Shown piece after piece: positions 27,661-39,796 of a stretch of 40,111 nt of DNA. The notes beneath the pieces are model-generated. The model did no database searches. It was not told the DNA's origin and saw only the letters and a program-made list of their open reading frames with translations. The number at the start of each line of letters is the position of its first letter. The first letter of the stretch is position 1. This DNA is from Bacteroidota bacterium (GTDB lineage Bacteria > Bacteroidota > Bacteroidia > JAFLBG01), in the NCBI GenBank assembly GCA_017303975.1, contig JAFLBG010000035.1, positions 1 to 40,111 on the forward strand. The letters are read 5' to 3'. A program made the position numbers and the translations under genes.

Positions 27661-28434
27661 TTAATTTAGTTTTTTATAAAACTCATCCACTAATTTTTGT
27701 TGATCGGGATAATTAATTAAAACCGCACGATGCGGACCATGAAATACAAATAAGCTACCGGCAGCCACAGCAGAAGCACCGCCTTCGTTTACCGCAGATA
27801 ACAAATTAGCAACATTATTCGCACCACCTAAGGCTATTACAGGAATAGAAACGTTTGAGGTGATACTCTTTAATAAATCTATATCATACCCTTTGTAAGT
27901 ACCATCTCTATCAATAGAATTTACAATCAATTCTCCGGCACCTAATTGCTCCATCCTGCATGCAAATGTAATTGGGTCTTCGGAAGTTGATTTTTCTCCG
28001 CTATTATAGTGAACCTTATATCCACCAATAAATTTCTTCTTTACATCAATAGAAACAACAATACTTTGACTACCAAATAACGCAGCGGCTTGTTGAACTA
28101 GTTTTTCATTGGTTATAGCAGACGAATTAAGAATAATTTTCTCGACACCTAAGCTTAATATTTTTTGAATTTGGTCGGTAGTAGTTATTCCTCCTCCATA
28201 AGCAAGCGGCATAAAACATTCCTCGGTAATTTCTCTTATTCTATCATAATTAGGTTCTTTCTTATTTCTTGTTGCAGAAATATCAATAAATGCCAATTCA
28301 TCAACTTCTTTTTCGTTGAAAATTTTTACTGCATTTATAGGATCGCCAACATAAGAAGGATTTTTGAAATTGACTGTTTTTACCAACCCTTGATTTTGGT
28401 ATTGCAACACTGGTATAACTCTTATTCTTCGCAT
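27661..28434 (-). CDS. HisF2/AglZ-type cyclase-like protein
   Basis: This 257-residue (beta/alpha)8 protein is related to imidazole-glycerol-phosphate synthase subunit HisF, with GDPINAVKIFNEKEVDELAF, PLAYGGGI, NSIDRDGTYKGYD and PVIALGGANN. The first strand reads RVIPVLQYQNQG, so the catalytic Asp11 of histidine-pathway HisF is Gln11, while the second acid (SIDVKK) is kept. This matches the O-antigen paralogs that act with HisH2 and WbpG/PseA-type amidotransferases in acetamidino-sugar formation. Neither partner is in this window. A glycosyltransferase follows five bases downstream. Use in histidine synthesis is unlikely. Confidence 0.82.
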   Translation of the reverse strand: MRRIRVIPVLQYQNQGLVKTVNFKNPSYVGDPINAVKIFNEKEVDELAFIDISATRNKKEPNYDRIREITEECFMPLAYGGGITTTDQIQKILSLGVEKIILNSSAITNEKLVQQAAALFGSQSIVVSIDVKKKFIGGYKVHYNSGEKSTSEDPITFACRMEQLGAGELIVNSIDRDGTYKGYDIDLLKSITSNVSIPVIALGGANNVANLLSAVNEGGASAVAAGSLFVFHGPHRAVLINYPDQQKLVDEFYKKLN

Positions 28435-30802: not shown

Positions 30803-31390
30803 TTATTTAGATTGCCAAGTTTTATAGATATCTTGCTGTTTAGGTCTATCAGCAGGAATTTCGCGAAGTGGCTCACATTCTTTTAATGTCGCGTGTAATT
30901 CTGCAGGTAATTGTTGATAAAGCTTTGTGCCTTCGGTTTTCCATTCTATTCTTTCATCGGTCATCTCTTTAATTATTTTTGCAGGGTTACCTGCTACAAT
31001 TTTTCGTTCTGGTATTTGCATTCCTTCAGGCACAAAAGAGAGTGCGCCCACGATGGAATTATCCCCAACAACAACATTATCCATAACTACTGCATTCATA
31101 CCTACCAGCGTATTCATTCCAAGAGTCGCACCATGAATTACGGCACCGTGTCCAACATGAGCACCTTCTTTTAATAACACCGTAGTGCCAGGAAACATGT
31201 GAATAGTACAGTTCTCCTGCACATTACAACCATCTTCAATGATTACTTCGCCCCAATCTCCTCTAACTACTGCCCCAGGAGCGATATATACATTTTTTCC
31301 AATAATTACATTTCCAACTACTGTGGCTTGTGGATGCACAAAAGAAGATTCGTGAATTACAGGAATGTAGCCGTTAAAACTATATATCAT
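30803..31390 (-). CDS. PaaY-like gamma-carbonic-anhydrase-type hexapeptide protein
   Basis: This 195-residue left-handed beta-helix protein shows repeating hexapeptides (VVGNVIIGKNVYIAPGA) and the gamma-class zinc ligands His64, His81 and His86 (IHMFPG, GHGAVIH). The C-terminal EWKTEGTKLYQQL and PLREI match PaaY, which has thioesterase activity in phenylacetate breakdown. No other paa genes are visible, so the metabolic link is open. It converges with the SGNH gene and sits 104 bases downstream of the glycan locus. Confidence 0.82.
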   Translation of the reverse strand: MIYSFNGYIPVIHESSFVHPQATVVGNVIIGKNVYIAPGAVVRGDWGEVIIEDGCNVQENCTIHMFPGTTVLLKEGAHVGHGAVIHGATLGMNTLVGMNAVVMDNVVVGDNSIVGALSFVPEGMQIPERKIVAGNPAKIIKEMTDERIEWKTEGTKLYQQLPAELHATLKECEPLREIPADRPKQQDIYKTWQSK

Positions 31391-31494: not shown

Positions 31495-32190
31495 TTATGC
31501 ACCTATTACTTTTCTAATCGTTTCAAACTCTTTAGCTGTATTTTTAATTAGTGCTAGTTCGTTCATATCCATTGATCCAAGATGAGCCTTTTCGGTTTCA
31601 AACTGGAAGGAATGCTTTAACGTAAAGTGTTTTTCTAAATATTTTGCTCCATGCGCAGAAGCATATAATGCGCCAGCACAACCTAATGTATGGTCAGAAA
31701 TTCCATGAAAAATAGAATTCTTAAAATCTGGCATACTAAACTCATCTACACGTGTTGGATATTTAACAATGCAATACAAGTAGATTGCATGATCGTACTT
31801 TTTTACTTTATTTACATCATAATCAGATGGAATGGAAACAAACGTAGGAAGGTTTTTACTCATGATTTTTTCTACTAAATCAGGAGATTCAGCATGCATA
31901 CGAGCAGCGACTTTTAAATACGGCAGTTTCAAGTCCATACACCAATCTAATCTTTCATGTGTAAATGCAGTGCCAAATAAAGCAATATTAAGAGTGTCAG
32001 CATATTTTTTCAAACGAGCTAATCCATCGTAAGTTAACTCCAAATAGGCTCTTTCGGCACCAAACTGAGTAGCTGTATAAAGCTGCACTTTAACCGCATC
32101 AGCTCCTGCCAATTTAGATTGAAGTATCATTTGTTCGGCTACTTCTAAACTTCCTCCATGTTGAGGAAAAATTTCTGATATAATAAACAT
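31495..32190 (-). CDS. Short NeuB-family protein lacking the SAF domain
   Basis: This 231-residue protein is a NeuB-type TIM barrel. It has SEIFPQHGG at 5-13 (in place of AEIGxNHxG), KVQLY, LYCIVKYPTR, GISDHTLG near 166-173, and EKHFT near 186-190. NeuB enzymes condense phosphoenolpyruvate with an N-acetylhexosamine to make nine-carbon acids. The chain ends right where the linker to the antifreeze-like (SAF) domain would start, so the domain that caps the partner active site is absent. Domain loss, not frameshift, is suggested by the neat end. It is the last gene of the glycan operon, 17 bases after the cytidylyltransferase. Activity is uncertain. Confidence 0.8.
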   Translation of the reverse strand: MFIISEIFPQHGGSLEVAEQMILQSKLAGADAVKVQLYTATQFGAERAYLELTYDGLARLKKYADTLNIALFGTAFTHERLDWCMDLKLPYLKVAARMHAESPDLVEKIMSKNLPTFVSIPSDYDVNKVKKYDHAIYLYCIVKYPTRVDEFSMPDFKNSIFHGISDHTLGCAGALYASAHGAKYLEKHFTLKHSFQFETEKAHLGSMDMNELALIKNTAKEFETIRKVIGA

Positions 32191-32207
32191 AATTGATTAT
32201 TGTTAAA

Positions 32208-32966
32208 TTATTTTAACTCTAAATTAATAGTATTTTTTACTTGGTCTTTAGAAACCTGAATAATATTCTTATTGATTTCTACAATTTCGGGATGTGCATC
32301 TAAAAAGGCAATCATTCGTTTATAATCTACAATGGATTTGCCATCGTATAAATTTGCATATACCTCTTTAATAAATTTCAAATCGTCCGGAGTATCACAA
32401 TGCAAGCGATACTGAGGTCTTTTAAGAGATTCTTCTACATCTAACCACTGTACTTTAAAATGTTTGTCGTCTGCAAAAAGCCAACTTAAATACTCACTTG
32501 CATTTTCATCTTGCATTAGTTTATTAAGTCTAACCAGTGCATCGTAAGAAAAAATATCACCCTTACCACCTCCCGCCATCTGTTTGGTTGTGGTATAATC
32601 AACACCATTCTTAATATGTTGTTCTATTCCATAATCAATAAATTCTGGTGAAAACAAACAATTATCACCAGTAATACGAACACAAATATCTGGTTTAAAA
32701 AGCTCTGCTGCACCCAAAAAACGGGCTACCACATTATTCTCACTACCTCTAAAAAAAGGAACACCTTTCTTTTGCGCATACTCCAACAACGGAGTATCTT
32801 CTTCATTGGTAGATGTGCAAACAACAATATTTTTGGCATGTTTTATTTGTTTGGCTCTATCTATAATATGCTCTAAAATAGTTTGACCCGCAACTTCTAC
32901 AACTGCTTTGCGAGGCAGTCGCTTACTTTTAAGTCTTACTGTTATATAAATATCAACTTTTTTCAC
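32208..32966 (-). CDS. SpsF-type cytidylyltransferase
   Basis: This 252-residue GT-A-fold nucleotidyltransferase has the nucleotide-binding motif RLKSKRLPRK at 11-20, LEHIIDRAKQ, and the metal-site region VRITGDNCL. It matches the SpsF/acylneuraminate cytidylyltransferase group, which transfers CMP onto a ulosonic acid. The position between two NeuB genes supports activation of their product. It starts with GTG at 32966. The first residues, MKKVDIYITV, lead straight into the binding loop, so this start is natural. Confidence 0.85.
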   Translation of the reverse strand: MKKVDIYITVRLKSKRLPRKAVVEVAGQTILEHIIDRAKQIKHAKNIVVCTSTNEEDTPLLEYAQKKGVPFFRGSENNVVARFLGAAELFKPDICVRITGDNCLFSPEFIDYGIEQHIKNGVDYTTTKQMAGGGKGDIFSYDALVRLNKLMQDENASEYLSWLFADDKHFKVQWLDVEESLKRPQYRLHCDTPDDLKFIKEVYANLYDGKSIVDYKRMIAFLDAHPEIVEINKNIIQVSKDQVKNTINLELK

Positions 32967-33023
32967 TTTAACACTTTTTAATTTATTAATTACGAAACGA
33001 GATTAATATAGCTATTCTGCTCT

Positions 33024-34013
33024 TTACATTTTAATAGCGTTCCAAGTTAATCTGGTATTTGCTTCAATATCAATAGATGCGGGCTTCCCTTCTATTTTAT
33101 CAAACTGATCAACTAAAATTCTATCGTCCATCAAACTTCTTTTAAAACACAAATTTTTCAATGAAAATAATTCTCCTGCTTTAATATCAGTCAATGTGTA
33201 AATAGATTTCTTCAACAAATTGCGATATTTCATTTCATCGTCAGATAATTCAAAAGAATCGGAACCCATTACCAACTCAGTCTCTTTAACATAGTTTACT
33301 AATGCTGTCAATTCGTTTGGATTCAATGAGGAATAATAATCCGACTCCTTTAAAGATCTATCCAAGGTAAAATGTTTTTCGATAACCGTACATCCCATTG
33401 CTATTGCTAATAATGGAACAATGGTTGCCATCAAACTTTCGCCATCTACATGATCTTGAATACCAATGGGCAACCCAAACTCTTTCTTTAGTGCAGCAAT
33501 CTTCGAAAGATTAATATTCTTAAGTTCTGTAGGAAAATTTTGATAGCCATGTAAAATTACGATATCTGATTTCCCATTTTCTTTTATTATTTTAATTGCT
33601 TTATGAACCTCCTCTTTAGTAGAACCTCCAGAGGAAAGATAAATTGTTCTATTTTGGGCTGCAATTTCTTTCAACAATATAATATCAGAAATGGTAGTTG
33701 AGTGCACTTTGTAACCACTAATATTCATTTTTTTCGTAATCAAAAAACTGGAATAGTCGAATACTTCAGCAACTACATTAATTTTTTTATTTAAACAATA
33801 ATCAGAAACGCTTATCCACTGCTGCTCAGAATATTCCTTTATATGATAATTTTCATACTTCGGATGATCTTCCGCAACTAACTCTTTTGCTCTGAAAAGT
33901 TGGAATTTAACATAGTCGCATTTAGCATCAACGGCTACATCAACCATCTTTAATAAGGTCTCCATTCTACCTTCGTGTGCACTGGCAATTTCTGCAATAA
34001 CTTTAATATTCAT
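33024..34013 (-). CDS. NeuB-family synthase with SAF domain (AEIASAHEG subgroup)
   Basis: This 329-residue protein has a TIM barrel (about 1-250) and a C-terminal SAF domain (about 265-329, with KKSIYTLTDIKAGELFS). Motifs are AEIASAHEG at 7-15, VKFQLF, LSSGGSTKEEV, ILHGYQNFPTEL, GIQDHVDGES and EKHFTLDRS near 211-219. The HGYQNFPT and DHVDGES pattern differs from the HCxSxYP and SDHxxG of sialic, legionaminic and pseudaminic acid synthases and marks a subgroup with unknown sugar substrate. It should condense phosphoenolpyruvate with an aldose. The cyclase-family gene ends seven bases upstream, so they are co-transcribed. Confidence 0.88.
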   Translation of the reverse strand: MNIKVIAEIASAHEGRMETLLKMVDVAVDAKCDYVKFQLFRAKELVAEDHPKYENYHIKEYSEQQWISVSDYCLNKKINVVAEVFDYSSFLITKKMNISGYKVHSTTISDIILLKEIAAQNRTIYLSSGGSTKEEVHKAIKIIKENGKSDIVILHGYQNFPTELKNINLSKIAALKKEFGLPIGIQDHVDGESLMATIVPLLAIAMGCTVIEKHFTLDRSLKESDYYSSLNPNELTALVNYVKETELVMGSDSFELSDDEMKYRNLLKKSIYTLTDIKAGELFSLKNLCFKRSLMDDRILVDQFDKIEGKPASIDIEANTRLTWNAIKM

Positions 34014-34020
34014 ATTTCAT

Positions 34021-34692
34021 TTATTTTATCAATACTGCTCTGCAATGAGCAGCACTTGTGTCTTTAATACGCAATGGCAAACATGAAAATAAATATTCTC
34101 CTGTTTCAATTTCATTTAAGTTTAAAAGCAAAGGCGCCACCACCAATAGTTTTTCGTTAGCGGCAAACATTTTTTCAACAGGAAAATATTTGTCGTAAAA
34201 ATCATCAATCATTGGAGTATCTGTTGCCAACAACATAAAATTTTGTTCAATAATCCAATCGGTTAAATCTTTGGTAAAGTAAGGCGAATCTTTAATATAG
34301 TTCTCGTTATTGCGGTTTACTCCCCAACCACAAGCAATTATTAATGAATCGTATAATTTCGAATCGATATTCTTTTTACTCAATTCAATTAAAACATCCT
34401 GCTTAGTAATTTTAGAATTTGCATGCTGCTTGCCCTCGATTTTCACAACTAAAGTTTTTCTATAAAAATCAGTTAAAGCAAAATCACTTAATAATATCGA
34501 GTTGTTTAACTTATGTTGAGAGGTTTCAATGTATGTTCCAGTATGACTGCACAAATTAAAACGATAAACAGTAGATGGTTCATTATTACGTGTACTCATA
34601 AGCACAGAAACTTCATTGTCCCAACCATCTCTATACTTCCACATTTTATTGTAAATTGGAAGTGTTGCATCTATAATTGTGCACTTACTCAT
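34021..34692 (-). CDS. Cyclase-family (kynurenine formamidase-like fold) protein
   Basis: This 223-residue protein matches the cyclase family (PF04199 type), with IIDATLPIYNKM at the N-terminus and ATDTPMIDD in the middle. The metal-binding motif HxGTHxDxPxH appears as HTGTYIETSQH (50-60): the spacing is exact, the first and last His remain, but the second His is Tyr54 and the Asp is Glu56. Family enzymes hydrolyse amides such as N-formylkynurenine, or lactones, using Mn or Zn; the altered site suggests different chemistry or loss of metal. Its ATG overlaps the stop of the dehydrogenase by eight bases. The role in glycan synthesis is unknown. Confidence 0.78.
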   Translation of the reverse strand: MSKCTIIDATLPIYNKMWKYRDGWDNEVSVLMSTRNNEPSTVYRFNLCSHTGTYIETSQHKLNNSILLSDFALTDFYRKTLVVKIEGKQHANSKITKQDVLIELSKKNIDSKLYDSLIIACGWGVNRNNENYIKDSPYFTKDLTDWIIEQNFMLLATDTPMIDDFYDKYFPVEKMFAANEKLLVVAPLLLNLNEIETGEYLFSCLPLRIKDTSAAHCRAVLIK

Positions 34693-36160
34693 TTACTGAT
34701 TTTATAACTTGTTCAAGCAAATCAATCATTGCCTTACTTTCTGAATCTATTGTACAACCTGCAATATGGGGCGATACTAATAAATTTGAATTATTTCGTG
34801 CATATTCTATTACCGGATGATTCCATTTTTCTTGAATATGTTCATTGGTAATTACATCAACCGCTGCAGCTTTTAGCTTACCGGATTTCAAAGCATTTAG
34901 CATCGCTTGCTCATCCACCAGTTCACCTCGTGCGGTATTTAAAAAATAAGCGCCATCTTTCATTAACTCAAAATCTGAAGCTCCAAATGAATTACAGGTT
35001 TCATCTGTTAAATGGTAATGTAATGAAACAATATCTGCTTTCTGCAGTAGCTCTTTTCTTGAATTTACTTGGGTAACATAAGAATCTGTAATTTCTTTAA
35101 ATGGATCAAACGCAATTACTTTCATTTCAAAACTATTGGCAAAACGAGCCATCTTACGACCAATTCTACCATAACCTATCAATCCAATTGTTTTTCCATT
35201 TAACTCTATACTTCTAAAAATATGTTCTTGTTCTCGCCAAGTACCATATTTTGCAGCATTGCAACTAAAAGGAACTTTATTAATCATGGCTAACAACAAT
35301 GAGAATGAAAACTCTGATGAAGCATGAATTTGTTCAATTACTGGAGAAGACTTTATGCTCAATATTTTAATATTCCTTCGTTCTACTTCCTTTGTGTCAA
35401 TATGATTTGTACCGGTTGAGGGTGTTGCAATAAGAGTTAGTTGTGCTGCCGAGTCCAAAATATCCTTATCTATCTTATAAGGAGGGCATGTTCCTGTTAT
35501 CCATACTTGCGCGTTTCTTATCAATTCTACAACCTTTTCTTTGGGTGCATTAAACACAAAAGTAACATCAAAAAGTTTTGAAATTTTCTGCTTTAACTCA
35601 TCTGAAAAAAATTCGTAAGGAGCAGAAAACAACATTTTTTGTTTTCCGGTTGCTTTGAAATGCTCTATTTTGTATGGAGGAGAAAATCTAATGGGATGGT
35701 TCTTATTAAAGTCACTGTGTATGTATGCCGAAATAAACACAAAATCGATCTCATCCAAAACTGTAAGTAGCTCCGGCTTGGTTAAGTTTATTGTTTTGGT
35801 ATTCTCAGACTGATATTTCCAATTAATAGCAGAAAAACTTAATTGAAAACTATTTGCCAAATTTTGTTCTACTAGATTTAATGTTTCTGCAGATAATAAT
35901 GGGAAACAAACACTTAATTCGAACAAATAGCCTTTATCTATTTCATTTTTAGATGCAACATAGTTAGTTGATTTAAAACCATAATCCTTAATTTCATTTA
36001 CAACATCCATTGAATTTGCATACACATCAACGCGACTAGACAAATTACTATTCTGTAATGAGTTTATAAAATAGATATATGCAGGATGAAAATTAATTTC
36101 CTTTTTTAACGCAGAATTAGCGGTATCAATAAATAAAAAACCTTTCTTGCTATACTCCAT
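34685..36160 (-). CDS. D-2-hydroxyacid dehydrogenase with an extra N-terminal domain
   Basis: This 491-residue protein has a C-terminal D-isomer-specific 2-hydroxyacid dehydrogenase (about 175-491): NAD motif GYGRIG near 327-333, TARGELVDE near 407-415 carrying the catalytic Arg, a later Glu, and the catalytic His in SPHIAG near 464. The first ~170 residues are not part of that enzyme. They recall a cytidylyltransferase (AYIYFINSLQNSNLSSRV then FPLLSAETL) but lack the basic GSKR-type nucleotide loop, so they may be degenerate; this is inference. ATG 36160 is preferred over TTG 36190, being one base after the upstream stop. Substrate unknown; it presumably oxidises or reduces a sugar-acid precursor. 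Confidence 0.78.
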   Translation of the reverse strand: MEYSKKGFLFIDTANSALKKEINFHPAYIYFINSLQNSNLSSRVDVYANSMDVVNEIKDYGFKSTNYVASKNEIDKGYLFELSVCFPLLSAETLNLVEQNLANSFQLSFSAINWKYQSENTKTINLTKPELLTVLDEIDFVFISAYIHSDFNKNHPIRFSPPYKIEHFKATGKQKMLFSAPYEFFSDELKQKISKLFDVTFVFNAPKEKVVELIRNAQVWITGTCPPYKIDKDILDSAAQLTLIATPSTGTNHIDTKEVERRNIKILSIKSSPVIEQIHASSEFSFSLLLAMINKVPFSCNAAKYGTWREQEHIFRSIELNGKTIGLIGYGRIGRKMARFANSFEMKVIAFDPFKEITDSYVTQVNSRKELLQKADIVSLHYHLTDETCNSFGASDFELMKDGAYFLNTARGELVDEQAMLNALKSGKLKAAAVDVITNEHIQEKWNHPVIEYARNNSNLLVSPHIAGCTIDSESKAMIDLLEQVIKSVNE

Positions 36161-36161
36161 T

Positions 36162-37253
36162 CTATATATTTTCAATAATTTTTTTTGCAATTACTTCAGC
36201 TCCATTTATTTCAAATTGATGATTCTTCATATTACTAAGAATTTCAGAATATTTGGTTGAAATAAAACTTGTCAAAAAAACTGCAAGATTATTCTTAAAA
36301 TCTTCGATAGAAATAAACTCTCCTAAACCTAAAGATTTAAGTTGCTTAATATTTTCAGCCATTTCAGGATTCATCGCTTCTCCAATCAACAGCATTGGTG
36401 TTCTATAAGCTATACACTCCGAAATGGTATTAAATCCAGCTCTTCCAATTACCAAATCCATGTTTAGAATATGATCTACCATCAAATCCGACTTTGCTAC
36501 TTTTTTGAAATTTGCACTTTGAAAATCAAAATTTTCTGAAACATAAAACTCAAACTCTTGCAGCGAGCTTAGTTGTCCTAATGATTTTGTTATTAAACTT
36601 TTTAACACTTGGGCTCCACTATCAATTATCAAAATTTTAAACTTATCATTACTTACTCTGCTCTGTACGGTTGATTTTCTTACTATAAATGGAACTTCAA
36701 TAGCTTTACTTTTGTAGGTGGAGAGAATCTCCTTTGGGGTTAATGGTGGAAAAAATAATAGTTTCGCCTTGATAGCTTGTTGTTTAAATCTATCTAACAA
36801 TTCATTGGAAATAGGCTTGTTAACCAAATAGCTAAAAAACCAATCCCATGTAAAATGAGCAACTCCAAATGAGGGAATTTTTTTTGTATCAGCTACATCA
36901 AAAGCTTCGTAAACAAAATCTGAAATGATAAAATCATAAGCAGATGTATTCTTTAATTCATCCGAAATATAGTTATTAGAGGATGGTATATAGTTCACGT
37001 AAAAATTTCTTATTGAATCTATATCTGGAGAGCCATTTAGATTCTTATGCCAAATTATGTTATTGAATTTATTAAGATAGTTTACATCTTTAATAATCAA
37101 CTCAGCATCTTTTATATGGGTATTGAGTTGCAAGTCAAACTCAATTTGCCGACTAAGCTTTTTAAGCTCTTCAATAATTACACTCTGCCTCACAATAGGT
37201 CCAAAACCTTCGTCAGTGATATAGATTTTTGAGCGTAATTTATCTTTTAACAT
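36162..37253 (-). CDS. GT28/MurG-like glycosyltransferase
   Basis: This 363-residue GT-B protein has an N-terminal TDEGFGPIVRQ loop, analogous to the glycine-rich acceptor loop of MurG-like enzymes. Its C-terminal donor domain carries DLVIGRAGFNTISE near 266-278 and later EAMNPEMAENIKQL. That C-terminal pattern is typical of GT28 and related transferases, and also of PseG-type UDP-sugar hydrolases, which share the fold. The dehydrogenase starts one base after its stop. In context it may transfer or process the sugar made by the locus. Confidence 0.72.
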   Translation of the reverse strand: MLKDKLRSKIYITDEGFGPIVRQSVIIEELKKLSRQIEFDLQLNTHIKDAELIIKDVNYLNKFNNIIWHKNLNGSPDIDSIRNFYVNYIPSSNNYISDELKNTSAYDFIISDFVYEAFDVADTKKIPSFGVAHFTWDWFFSYLVNKPISNELLDRFKQQAIKAKLLFFPPLTPKEILSTYKSKAIEVPFIVRKSTVQSRVSNDKFKILIIDSGAQVLKSLITKSLGQLSSLQEFEFYVSENFDFQSANFKKVAKSDLMVDHILNMDLVIGRAGFNTISECIAYRTPMLLIGEAMNPEMAENIKQLKSLGLGEFISIEDFKNNLAVFLTSFISTKYSEILSNMKNHQFEINGAEVIAKKIIENI

Positions 37254-37288
37254 AGTTCAAGTAGAAAATTACGAAAAAAGATTAAGTT

Positions 37289-38599
37289 TTACGGATTTAC
37301 ACTTAAAATAGGATGTTTACGTATAGTATAGTCTTCAATACCATTTTCTTGAAAGAACGCACTTGTAGAGACATTAAAAGCCTTAGAAATAGACAACTCT
37401 AAAGATTCTAAATCATTTATACAAATTGAATTGAACGGGCTCATTTTAATAGGAAAATTTGGATATCTATTTATAGGAAATAATAGTGTTTTATGACCAT
37501 AAAATAGTCGCTCAAATGCTATTGCAGAGAAAAAAGTTACCACTAATTCCGCTTGGTAAAACAATTCAATATTTGATTTACTTTCGTCAGCATAAGATAT
37601 ATTTTGGTAGTTAAAAGAGCTGTAATACGCATTAGTTTCTTCTTTATGCTTTTTTTCCAAAGGATGCAAGAAAATCAGAAGTGGCATTTTATTTCTTTTG
37701 CATACCTCCATCAATGCATCAAGTACTTTAATTTCAAACTCATCTTTCTTATTATCTAAGTGTCCCAGTTTTTTTCGAAGCCATCCTGCTGTAGAATAAA
37801 AACCCAACTTACTCTTGTATTTTTTTTCTGAATTGTCAGCATATATTTTTCTGATTTCCAGATAAATTTCTGGAGCCCAATAATTAAGTTTTTCATACTT
37901 AATTGTTTTATCAAAAAAAGCGACTTCTTCTTGCTGGTACTTGAAACAGATAGAAATTGAGTTTGCTATCAAAAGCTCATTCCATAAAAACAGAGGAACC
38001 TCTGATGTTATAATATTGGTATACACATTTATCTTTTTTAGAAGTAAAGAATTGATGCATACATCACGCTCATAGGCAGAAAAAAAATGTACCTTCTTTA
38101 TTTTATTATCTGCAACCAGATACTTAAGTGCTACAGAACTAGCATATTCTAATGGCAACAAGGAATATTTTTTTCGGAGTGTTTTAGACAATACCGTTAA
38201 AGGAAGAAAGACAATTGTTATAAGAAAGCAGCCTAACAATATCCATAACTTTTTAAAAAACGATTGTGTAGTAAAAACATCATTTCGAGAAAACAATCCT
38301 TCAATCTTCTCTCCCGAAAAAAACTCAACATATTCTATTCGTTGGGTTTTTGATTTTGTATTTGTATCATATATATATATACCGGAATTTGCAAGTTGTT
38401 CTAAAACAGTTGTTTTATTTAACTGTTTAGCAACTTGAAAAAATGTGCTTACCAACAAAAGTAAATTTGAATATGCTTTTTCAGGATAGAAATACGTTCT
38501 GCCGGTTAATTTTCTTCCTGCAATTTCAAAATCAGAATTCTTTGAAGAAAAATTAGCCGCAAAAACACATCGTAGATATAAAACTAATACTGAAATCAT
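37289..38599 (-). CDS. Unrecognised GT-like surface-glycan protein with one membrane span
   Basis: This 436-residue protein has a hydrophobic segment at about 118-137 followed by a basic cluster. The C-terminal half looks like a GT-B donor domain: LLIFLHPLEKKHKEE, then AELVVTFFSAIAFERLFYG and TLLFPINRYPNFP. That shape is seen in capsule and polysialyl-type transferases, but I do not recognise a family. Placed between glycosyltransferases and upstream of the NeuB genes, it is a candidate ulosonic-acid transferase. Its ATG follows the GT4 stop directly (TAAATG). Confidence 0.65.
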   Translation of the reverse strand: MISVLVLYLRCVFAANFSSKNSDFEIAGRKLTGRTYFYPEKAYSNLLLLVSTFFQVAKQLNKTTVLEQLANSGIYIYDTNTKSKTQRIEYVEFFSGEKIEGLFSRNDVFTTQSFFKKLWILLGCFLITIVFLPLTVLSKTLRKKYSLLPLEYASSVALKYLVADNKIKKVHFFSAYERDVCINSLLLKKINVYTNIITSEVPLFLWNELLIANSISICFKYQQEEVAFFDKTIKYEKLNYWAPEIYLEIRKIYADNSEKKYKSKLGFYSTAGWLRKKLGHLDNKKDEFEIKVLDALMEVCKRNKMPLLIFLHPLEKKHKEETNAYYSSFNYQNISYADESKSNIELFYQAELVVTFFSAIAFERLFYGHKTLLFPINRYPNFPIKMSPFNSICINDLESLELSISKAFNVSTSAFFQENGIEDYTIRKHPILSVNP

Positions 38600-39796
38600 T
38601 TAAATGGACTTTTCAAGTTCTTTTGCAAAGTTAGTATAGGTATTTTCAGCATTAAAGTTTTGATTCCAAAAATCTTTTACACCTTGTCTAAATTCTTGCG
38701 TGTTCATATCCGAAACAAAAAATTCATCTAAATAGGAAGATACTGTACCCGGACTAAAATCCTTATCAATTAATATTCCAGTTTTATTAGTACAAATCTC
38801 CGAACATCCGCCAACATTAGTTGACAATAAAGGTATTCCGAAACTAATAGCTTCTATCATTGAAAATGGAAGTCCTTCGGATGAGCTAACACTACAAAAC
38901 AAATGAATAGGATTTGTCTTGTAAAACTGCATCAATTCCCCTTTGTTTAAGTATCCTACAAAAACAACCTGCACATGACTTGGCAACTGCTTACACTGTA
39001 TTTTCAAACTATCCAAATCATCTCCATTTCCAATTACATACCATTTTACAGGAGTTTGAACATGCATTAACACTTTAGCCAAAGCTTGTAACCGCTTTAC
39101 ATTTCTTACAATAGAGCAAGTAGCAATTGTAAAAACAGTTGAATTAGAATATGGATTAATACCACAATCAAAGCTTCCTAAATACGAAACATTTATTTTA
39201 TGTGAATGGTTAAAATATACTCTTTTTAAATGAGCAGCTCCTTTCTTAGATACAGAAAAAACAGAATCACATTTTTTTAGCTGAAACTCTCTGAATGGAA
39301 TAAACTTATAAGCTGTTTGTTCTTCAAAAACATCAAAACCATGAACTCTAAAAACAAACTTTACAGAAGGTTGTAATTCCTTAATAAATGATGCTATGGT
39401 GGCAAGTTCATTTCCCCAATAACTATAAACTACAAAAGAATCATCAATTTTTTTGGCCAATGAACTTGCAACGCCCAAACAGTGCTTTAATTGCGAGAAA
39501 TTATACCTAAATCTCTCTAAAAAATAATTCTTACTTTTTGAGTTTATGGCATCTTTAAGTATTTCAAAAAGAATTTTAATTTTTGCACCAAAAGAAATAC
39601 TTTTTTCAATAGTAAGATTAGAGATTAATGTTACATTCTTGGGCAAACCACTTCTAATCTCTTCCTCTGATTTTATAAAACAGTATATAAAGATCTTCTT
39701 AAATTTCTTCGACAAAACCAACAATTCATCTTCCAAATAGGGCTCTCCTCCAGGGAAAGGGAACTTTGATGTCAATATTAGAAGATTGGTTTTCAA
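38600..39796 (-). CDS. GT4-family glycosyltransferase
   Basis: This 398-residue GT-B glycosyltransferase starts LLILTSKFPFPGGEPYLEDE, where the Gly-Gly loop lies (quoted as LLILTSKFPF then PGGEPYLEDE). It shows FRVHGFDVFEE and the EX7E motif SEGLPFSMIEA near 306-316, followed by TNVGGCSEI. The start is TTG at 39796, one base after the stop of the upstream gene, with no ATG nearby, so translation is probably coupled. It acts in the cytoplasm on a lipid-linked glycan; the donor is unknown. Confidence 0.88.
   Translation of the reverse strand: MKTNLLILTSKFPFPGGEPYLEDELLVLSKKFKKIFIYCFIKSEEEIRSGLPKNVTLISNLTIEKSISFGAKIKILFEILKDAINSKSKNYFLERFRYNFSQLKHCLGVASSLAKKIDDSFVVYSYWGNELATIASFIKELQPSVKFVFRVHGFDVFEEQTAYKFIPFREFQLKKCDSVFSVSKKGAAHLKRVYFNHSHKINVSYLGSFDCGINPYSNSTVFTIATCSIVRNVKRLQALAKVLMHVQTPVKWYVIGNGDDLDSLKIQCKQLPSHVQVVFVGYLNKGELMQFYKTNPIHLFCSVSSSEGLPFSMIEAISFGIPLLSTNVGGCSEICTNKTGILIDKDFSPGTVSSYLDEFFVSDMNTQEFRQGVKDFWNQNFNAENTYTNFAKELEKSI

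Follow-up and report, generated by a model that had tools for sequence, protein, structure and literature searches.

We analyzed a stretch of 40,111 nucleotides from a Bacteroidota bacterium (assembly GCA_017303975.1, contig JAFLBG010000035.1), hereafter called the window, which is an entire contig (G000:C35:1-40111) of a 3.4-Mb assembly in 70 contigs. A minus-strand gene cluster at positions 31495 to 38599 seems to encode a third, non-standard cytidine 5′-monophosphate (CMP)-ulosonate pathway, in which an unusual 3-deoxy-2-ulosonic acid would be activated with CMP and added to a surface glycan; we put the probability of this reading at about 0.6. It builds on gene content and co-occurrence, on the pattern of substitutions, on changed residues, and on placement in the tree; from these we infer all enzymatic activities, the order of the steps, and an acceptor lacking an N-acetyl group. 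The same genome carries two more NeuB genes, located on contigs C29 and C20. The C29 gene is accompanied by LegB, LegC, NeuC/LegG, PtmE-like, and LegF-like genes, while C20 holds PseB, PseC, PseI, and PseF genes and thus its own synthase. In these sets LegC, NeuB, NeuC, PseB, PseC, PseI, and PseF exceed their NCBIfam cut-offs, and LegB falls slightly below. Given these separate legionaminic (C29) and pseudaminic (C20) acid gene sets, the window cluster would be the third ulosonate system of the organism.

A short NeuB-family protein in a conserved core

The original prediction, made from the DNA letters alone, described five consecutive, closely spaced minus-strand open reading frames (ORFs) at 31495-36160, all of which are present and nearly abutting. 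Their family assignments were confirmed with Pfam. In order of position, they encode a short NeuB-family protein of 231 residues consisting of a TIM barrel only (c0, 31495-32190; PF03102, 2.6e-24), an SpsF-type cytidylyltransferase of 252 residues (c23, 32208-32966; PF02348, CTP_transf_3, 2.3e-23), a full-length NeuB-like protein of 329 residues (c11, 33024-34013; PF03102, 7.5e-55), a cyclase/hydrolase of 223 residues (c12, 34021-34692; PF04199, Cyclase, 6.2e-16), and a D-2-hydroxyacid dehydrogenase (c9, 34685-36157; PF02826, 2-Hacid_dh_C, 1.2e-49). Both NeuB proteins had been called divergent, a description borne out by their scores, which stay under the cut-offs of the NCBIfam NeuB and PseI equivalogs. 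The cluster, viewed up to the contig end at 40111, also contains no dehydratase, aminotransferase, acetyltransferase, or hydrolase of the standard legionaminic or pseudaminic acid route, the first three of which had been noted as missing. The proposed extent was too short, however, since the core continues to 38599 through two further minus-strand genes, c1 (36162-37253) and c2 (37289-38599). The missing SAF domain of c0 and an additional N-terminal domain of the dehydrogenase had likewise gone unmentioned.

To define the shared gene content, we clustered the ORFs of eight Bacteroidia loci carrying c0, i.e., the window, L008, L009, L031, L037, L038, L039, and L040. The first relatives, L008 and L009, came from a search with the cyclase and the others from searches with the short NeuB; L009 and genome G725 have matching genes and are apparently one genome. 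The core common to all eight loci comprises c0, c1, one CMP-synthetase, and c2. Among 395 genomes of the class Bacteroidia, c0 and c1 occur in an identical set of 7, whereas c2 is found in those 7 and, at lower scores, in 17 others. Identity to the window copy across the loci is 60-85% for c0, 46-55% for c1, and 24-33% for c2, making c0 the slowest-evolving core protein. The CMP-synthetase takes three forms: a NeuA-type protein of 184-196 residues (L008, L031, L037, and L040), a lone SpsF (L009 and L038), or an SpsF accompanied by a full-length NeuB (window and L039). The NeuA-type genes (L008 9433-9990, L031 7559-8149, L037 6999-7553, and L040 7601-8182) are shortened, with a highly conserved core, and in our sample they are restricted to c0 loci. 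No other locus showed the exact five-gene neighbourhood of the original prediction. In L039, four of the five gene types are present, and one ORF on the opposite strand separates the dehydrogenase from the other three.

The c0 protein is readily recognized as a member of PF03102 (86.4 bits against a gathering threshold of 22.1) and falls well below the NCBIfam equivalogs PseI (94 bits against 340) and NeuB (88 against 400). With residues numbered on Neisseria meningitidis NeuB, all eight copies retain E25, K53, Q55, T110, K129, S154, Y186, S213, D214, H215, E234, and H236, which are catalytic, metal, and phosphoenolpyruvate (PEP)-site positions. In the same alignment, S132 is replaced by A and N184 by V or L, and D247 and the entire SAF domain with R314 are missing from every copy. 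In characterized sialic-acid-type synthases, acceptor recognition depends on the SAF domain. Compared with NeuB, PseI, and LegI, which combine PF03102 with SAF, c0 thus belongs to the same barrel family and has the catalytic Glu and Lys and the metal His and Glu, but it forms a clade of its own (support 100/100) on a long stem branch. This clade is placed next to Kdn-type synthases with weak support (90/81), the Kdn label resting on the phosphatase of L077, which scores above the NF058599 cut-off, and on the clustering of the other Kdn-type synthases with that of L077 (100/100).

In NeuB, the essential R314 positions the N-acetyl group of N-acetylmannosamine, and the SAF domain is missing from the related KDO8P synthases (PMC6795526); in Caulobacter NeuB, the catalytic Glu, a metal His, and the Arg equivalent to R314 have been probed (PMC7591256). 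Kdn-type synthases carry S at position 314 in 8/8 cases. Since R314 contacts the N-acetyl group and the Kdn-type synthases, whose own acceptor should carry none, do without it too, the c0 acceptor probably has no N-acetyl group. Bacteroidia Kdn clusters, composed of a synthase, SpsF, and an NF058599 Kdn-9-phosphate phosphatase, share a c2-type transferase and an SpsF-type CMP-synthetase with the window, but their synthases retain SAF and D247, unlike c0. No KdsC or Kdn-9-phosphate phosphatase was detected as a HAD-type match in the ten window genes scanned, whereas one is present in the Kdn-type locus L077. Judging from residues and context, c0 is probably a PEP-dependent ulosonate synthase occupying the synthase slot of the cluster. 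We found no description of a SAF-less NeuB, or of a NeuB-cytidylyltransferase fusion, in the open-access literature.

A second SAF-less NeuB, of 232 residues, was seen on Azospirillum plasmid NZ_CP032327.1 (Alphaproteobacteria), where its gene and an overlapping asnB occupy L041 10146-12699. It keeps D247 and is possibly an independent SAF-less synthase; long-branch attraction may explain why the tree groups it with c0 (96/89).

The NeuB-like protein beside the cytidylyltransferase

The original prediction counted two synthases in the cluster, which is probably wrong, because the full-length NeuB-like protein c11 belongs to a clade paired with or fused to cytidylyltransferases and altered at its PEP site. 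Besides the metal ligands, c11 retains three features missing from c0: D247, R314, and a SAF domain, the last scoring weakly (18.6 bits). Its PEP site has E in place of T110 and Q in place of S213 in the window and L039, both positions are altered throughout the c11 clade (support 100/98), and K53 is T in two members. By comparison, position 110 is T or S and position 213 is S in all synthases compared, c0 included. Within the clade, the protein is fused to a cytidylyltransferase in L072 (3094-4866), L079 (4638-6302), and L081 (12551-14311), and Pfam finds both domains in the L072 and L079 fusions; the loci with these three fusions also hold a separate synthase. In L078, a c11-type gene and a cytidylyltransferase are neighbours.

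One CMP-synthetase was found in each of the 22 loci compared, i.e., the eight c0 loci and 14 further loci carrying c2, and c23 is the only one of the window cluster. The six loci with c11 (window, L039, L072, L078, L079, and L081), which belong to three pathway types, have no other CMP-synthetase within the stretch examined, and the remaining 16 have a lone CMP-synthetase. Because the pair or fusion takes the place of the lone enzyme and the PEP-site residues are altered, c11 and c23 can be read as a two-part CMP-ulosonate synthetase, in which c11 more likely assists SpsF than acts as a further synthase. The Bacillus subtilis sps operon (SpsE, SpsF, and SpsG) also has a NeuB-like gene adjoining an SpsF-type cytidylyltransferase; SpsE, however, is required for legionaminic acid, whereas c11 has an altered PEP site and coexists with another synthase.

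Predicted transferase, companion protein, and accessories

Full-length NeuB-type synthase and CMP-synthetase genes lie near c2 in all 14 of the 17 further c2 genomes that were examined. The synthase is PseI-type in L070, L072, L074, L075, and L078, Kdn-type in L071, L073, L076, L077, and L079-L082, and of another type in L069. From the ulosonate synthase and CMP-synthetase genes that adjoin every c2 relative examined, we take c2 to be a probable CMP-ulosonate transferase, with c0 filling the synthase slot. The HP motif of c2 is present in 22/22 homologues, and c2 adjoins the synthase in most of the 22 loci. The two ulosonate transferases of Tannerella forsythia, 445 and 442 residues long, reportedly have HP and D/E-D/E-G motifs (PMC6388019), and the gene order in that species is pseI, gtfS, and, further downstream, asnB (PMC6120980). 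The c2 protein resembles GtfS in its HP motif, its size of about 440 residues, and the synthase and CMP-synthetase nearby. Its score against NF046086 (BFO_1060) was 24 bits for a cut-off of 200, and a profile search of the PDB returned nothing meaningful for it. The window thus shares with the T. forsythia O-glycosylation locus (pseBCFHGI, gtfS, and asnB) the succession of a synthase and an HP-motif transferase, with asnB nearby in many loci, but lacks pseB, pseC, pseH, and pseG and has c0 in place of the synthase. AsnB was dropped as a c0-specific gene because loci that combine c2 with other synthases have it as well, placing it in the wider glycan locus; HisH, HisF, and WbuX were dropped likewise.

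The constant companion of c0, c1, is a GT28/MJ1255-like GT-B protein predicted to be a nucleoside diphosphate-sugar hydrolase or a glycosyltransferase. All eight homologues contain PF04101 (GT28_C) of the GT28 superfamily, and a weak match to the MJ1255 glycosyltransferase subfamily was obtained. The region corresponding to the PseG-type GxGH histidine reads GFGP in 5/8 loci and GYGH in 3/8. We rejected an assignment as PseG hydrolase, given the replaced histidine and the missing PseG match; c1 may act as a hydrolase or as a transferase. The three GYGH loci (L031, L037, and L040) have neither dehydrogenase nor cyclase, and the GFGP loci have one or both, a suggestive tracking of the motif with the accessories among eight related loci.

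The dehydrogenase and the cyclase had been considered part of the unit but are optional accessories outside its core. The c9 type is present in 4/8 loci (window, L009, L038, and L039), and its four homologues share an invariant GYGRIG motif and R410, E439, and H464, which we take from general family knowledge to be the NAD motif and the catalytic residues. Translation of c9 could start at an in-frame ATG at 36157 or, alternatively, at a TTG at 36190. Its extra N-terminal domain of about 165 residues (35663-36157, minus strand) has no family match and exists only in the window and L009. L008 has its CMP-synthetase at this place, but profile comparison lent no support to kinship of the domain with that enzyme (probability of 2.7%). 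The c12 type is found in 3/8 loci (window, L008, and L009), all with the altered metal motif HTG[TS]YIETSQH, which departs from the HxGTHxDxPxH of PF04199. The window protein aligns to kynurenine formamidases over its full length, with HTGTYIETSQH where formamidase has HTGTHIDAPFH. Weak relatives of c12 in other Bacteroidota were discarded because of their unrelated gene surroundings.

Several neighbouring genes, also on the minus strand, were annotated. Next to c2 lies a GT4 glycosyltransferase gene (38600-39796; PF00534, 2.7e-19) that is part of this glycan locus; in L008, L009, and L038, a homologue sits beside c1. On the other side, c0 is adjoined by a PaaY/gamma-carbonic-anhydrase-like hexapeptide protein (30803-31390) that was not found in other c0 loci. 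A HisF2/AglZ-type acetamidino-modification gene (27661-28434) scores above its NCBIfam cut-off; no HisH or WbuX match was seen in the window, and several related loci have complete trios. L008 (93-4812) and L009 (1-3494) share a conserved block upstream of the core, encoding a kinase-like domain, two sugar nucleotidyltransferases, and a class II aldolase.

Proposed pathway and competing explanations

In the proposed pathway, c1 would supply or use a pathway-specific sugar, after which c0 would join PEP to an aldehyde acceptor, probably one other than an N-acetylhexosamine. The product would be converted to CMP-ulosonate by c23 with the help of c11 and transferred by c2, and in some strains the dehydrogenase and cyclase may tailor the acceptor or the product. 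A non-standard CMP-ulosonate pathway had been suggested from the outset, and it is now favoured by the divergent synthase clade, by the single CMP-synthetase per locus, and by a transferase family that always adjoins ulosonate synthases. More specifically, and only tentatively, c0 could be a bare-barrel synthase acting on an acceptor without N-acetyl, possibly a short aldose yielding fewer than nine carbons, with a NeuB-like pseudo-synthase serving as subunit or domain of the CMP-ulosonate synthetase. Several points weigh against the pathway as drawn. No acceptor-making gene was identified in the window cluster, and precursor genes may lie out of view beyond the contig end. The PseF and LegF-like genes of the genome could provide a CMP-synthetase in trans. 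AlphaFold models of c2 and the dehydrogenase were too poor for fold searches (mean predicted local distance difference test scores of 53 and 44), and the GtfS likeness of c2 is one of size, place, and motif. Finally, c1 has no NCBIfam PseG match and no significant similarity to PseG profiles, and its histidine-to-proline replacement also counts against this scheme.

The alternative that comes closest, a little short of even odds, takes c1 to be an ordinary glycosyltransferase adding a sugar next to the ulosonate, with the c0 acceptor drawn from central metabolism as for Kdn synthases. The MJ1255 and GT28_C matches and the proline in five c1 proteins are consistent with it, and Kdn-type loci likewise revealed no PseG-type hydrolase. 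Yet c1 strictly co-occurs with c0 rather than with c2, as would also fit a supplier of the c0 acceptor, and a PseG hydrolase lies near the synthase in 4/5 Pse-type loci. We consider it unlikely that two active synthases make two ulosonic acids, one from c11 and c23 and the other from c0, with PseF or the LegF-like enzyme activating it. In favour are the features retained by c11 (metal ligands, D247, R314, and a weak SAF domain), the PseF and LegF-like genes in other clusters of the genome, and the B. subtilis genes spsE and spsF, which function together as synthase and CMP-synthetase (PMC7439481). Against it stand the clade-wide changes at T110 and S213, with K53 replaced by T in two members, and the six loci, spread over three pathway types, in which the c11 pair or fusion replaces the lone CMP-synthetase. 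That c0 is a degenerate barrel serving as a scaffold or regulator instead of a synthase appears highly improbable: despite its long stem branch and the loss of SAF, D247, S132, and N184, all eight copies conserve every metal and general catalytic position that was checked, c0 evolves the slowest of the core proteins, and six of the eight loci have no synthase other than c0.

We thus favour the CMP-ulosonate pathway built around c0. What is new is the unusual synthase, the type of ulosonate pathway itself being already known, and the product is probably a sugar not yet described. The cytidylyltransferase-linked NeuB-like clade calls for caution against equating NeuB gene counts with pathway counts in genome surveys. 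Together, a SAF-less clade, one partner gene, and a family of ulosonate transferases point to an undescribed surface sugar of Bacteroidia.

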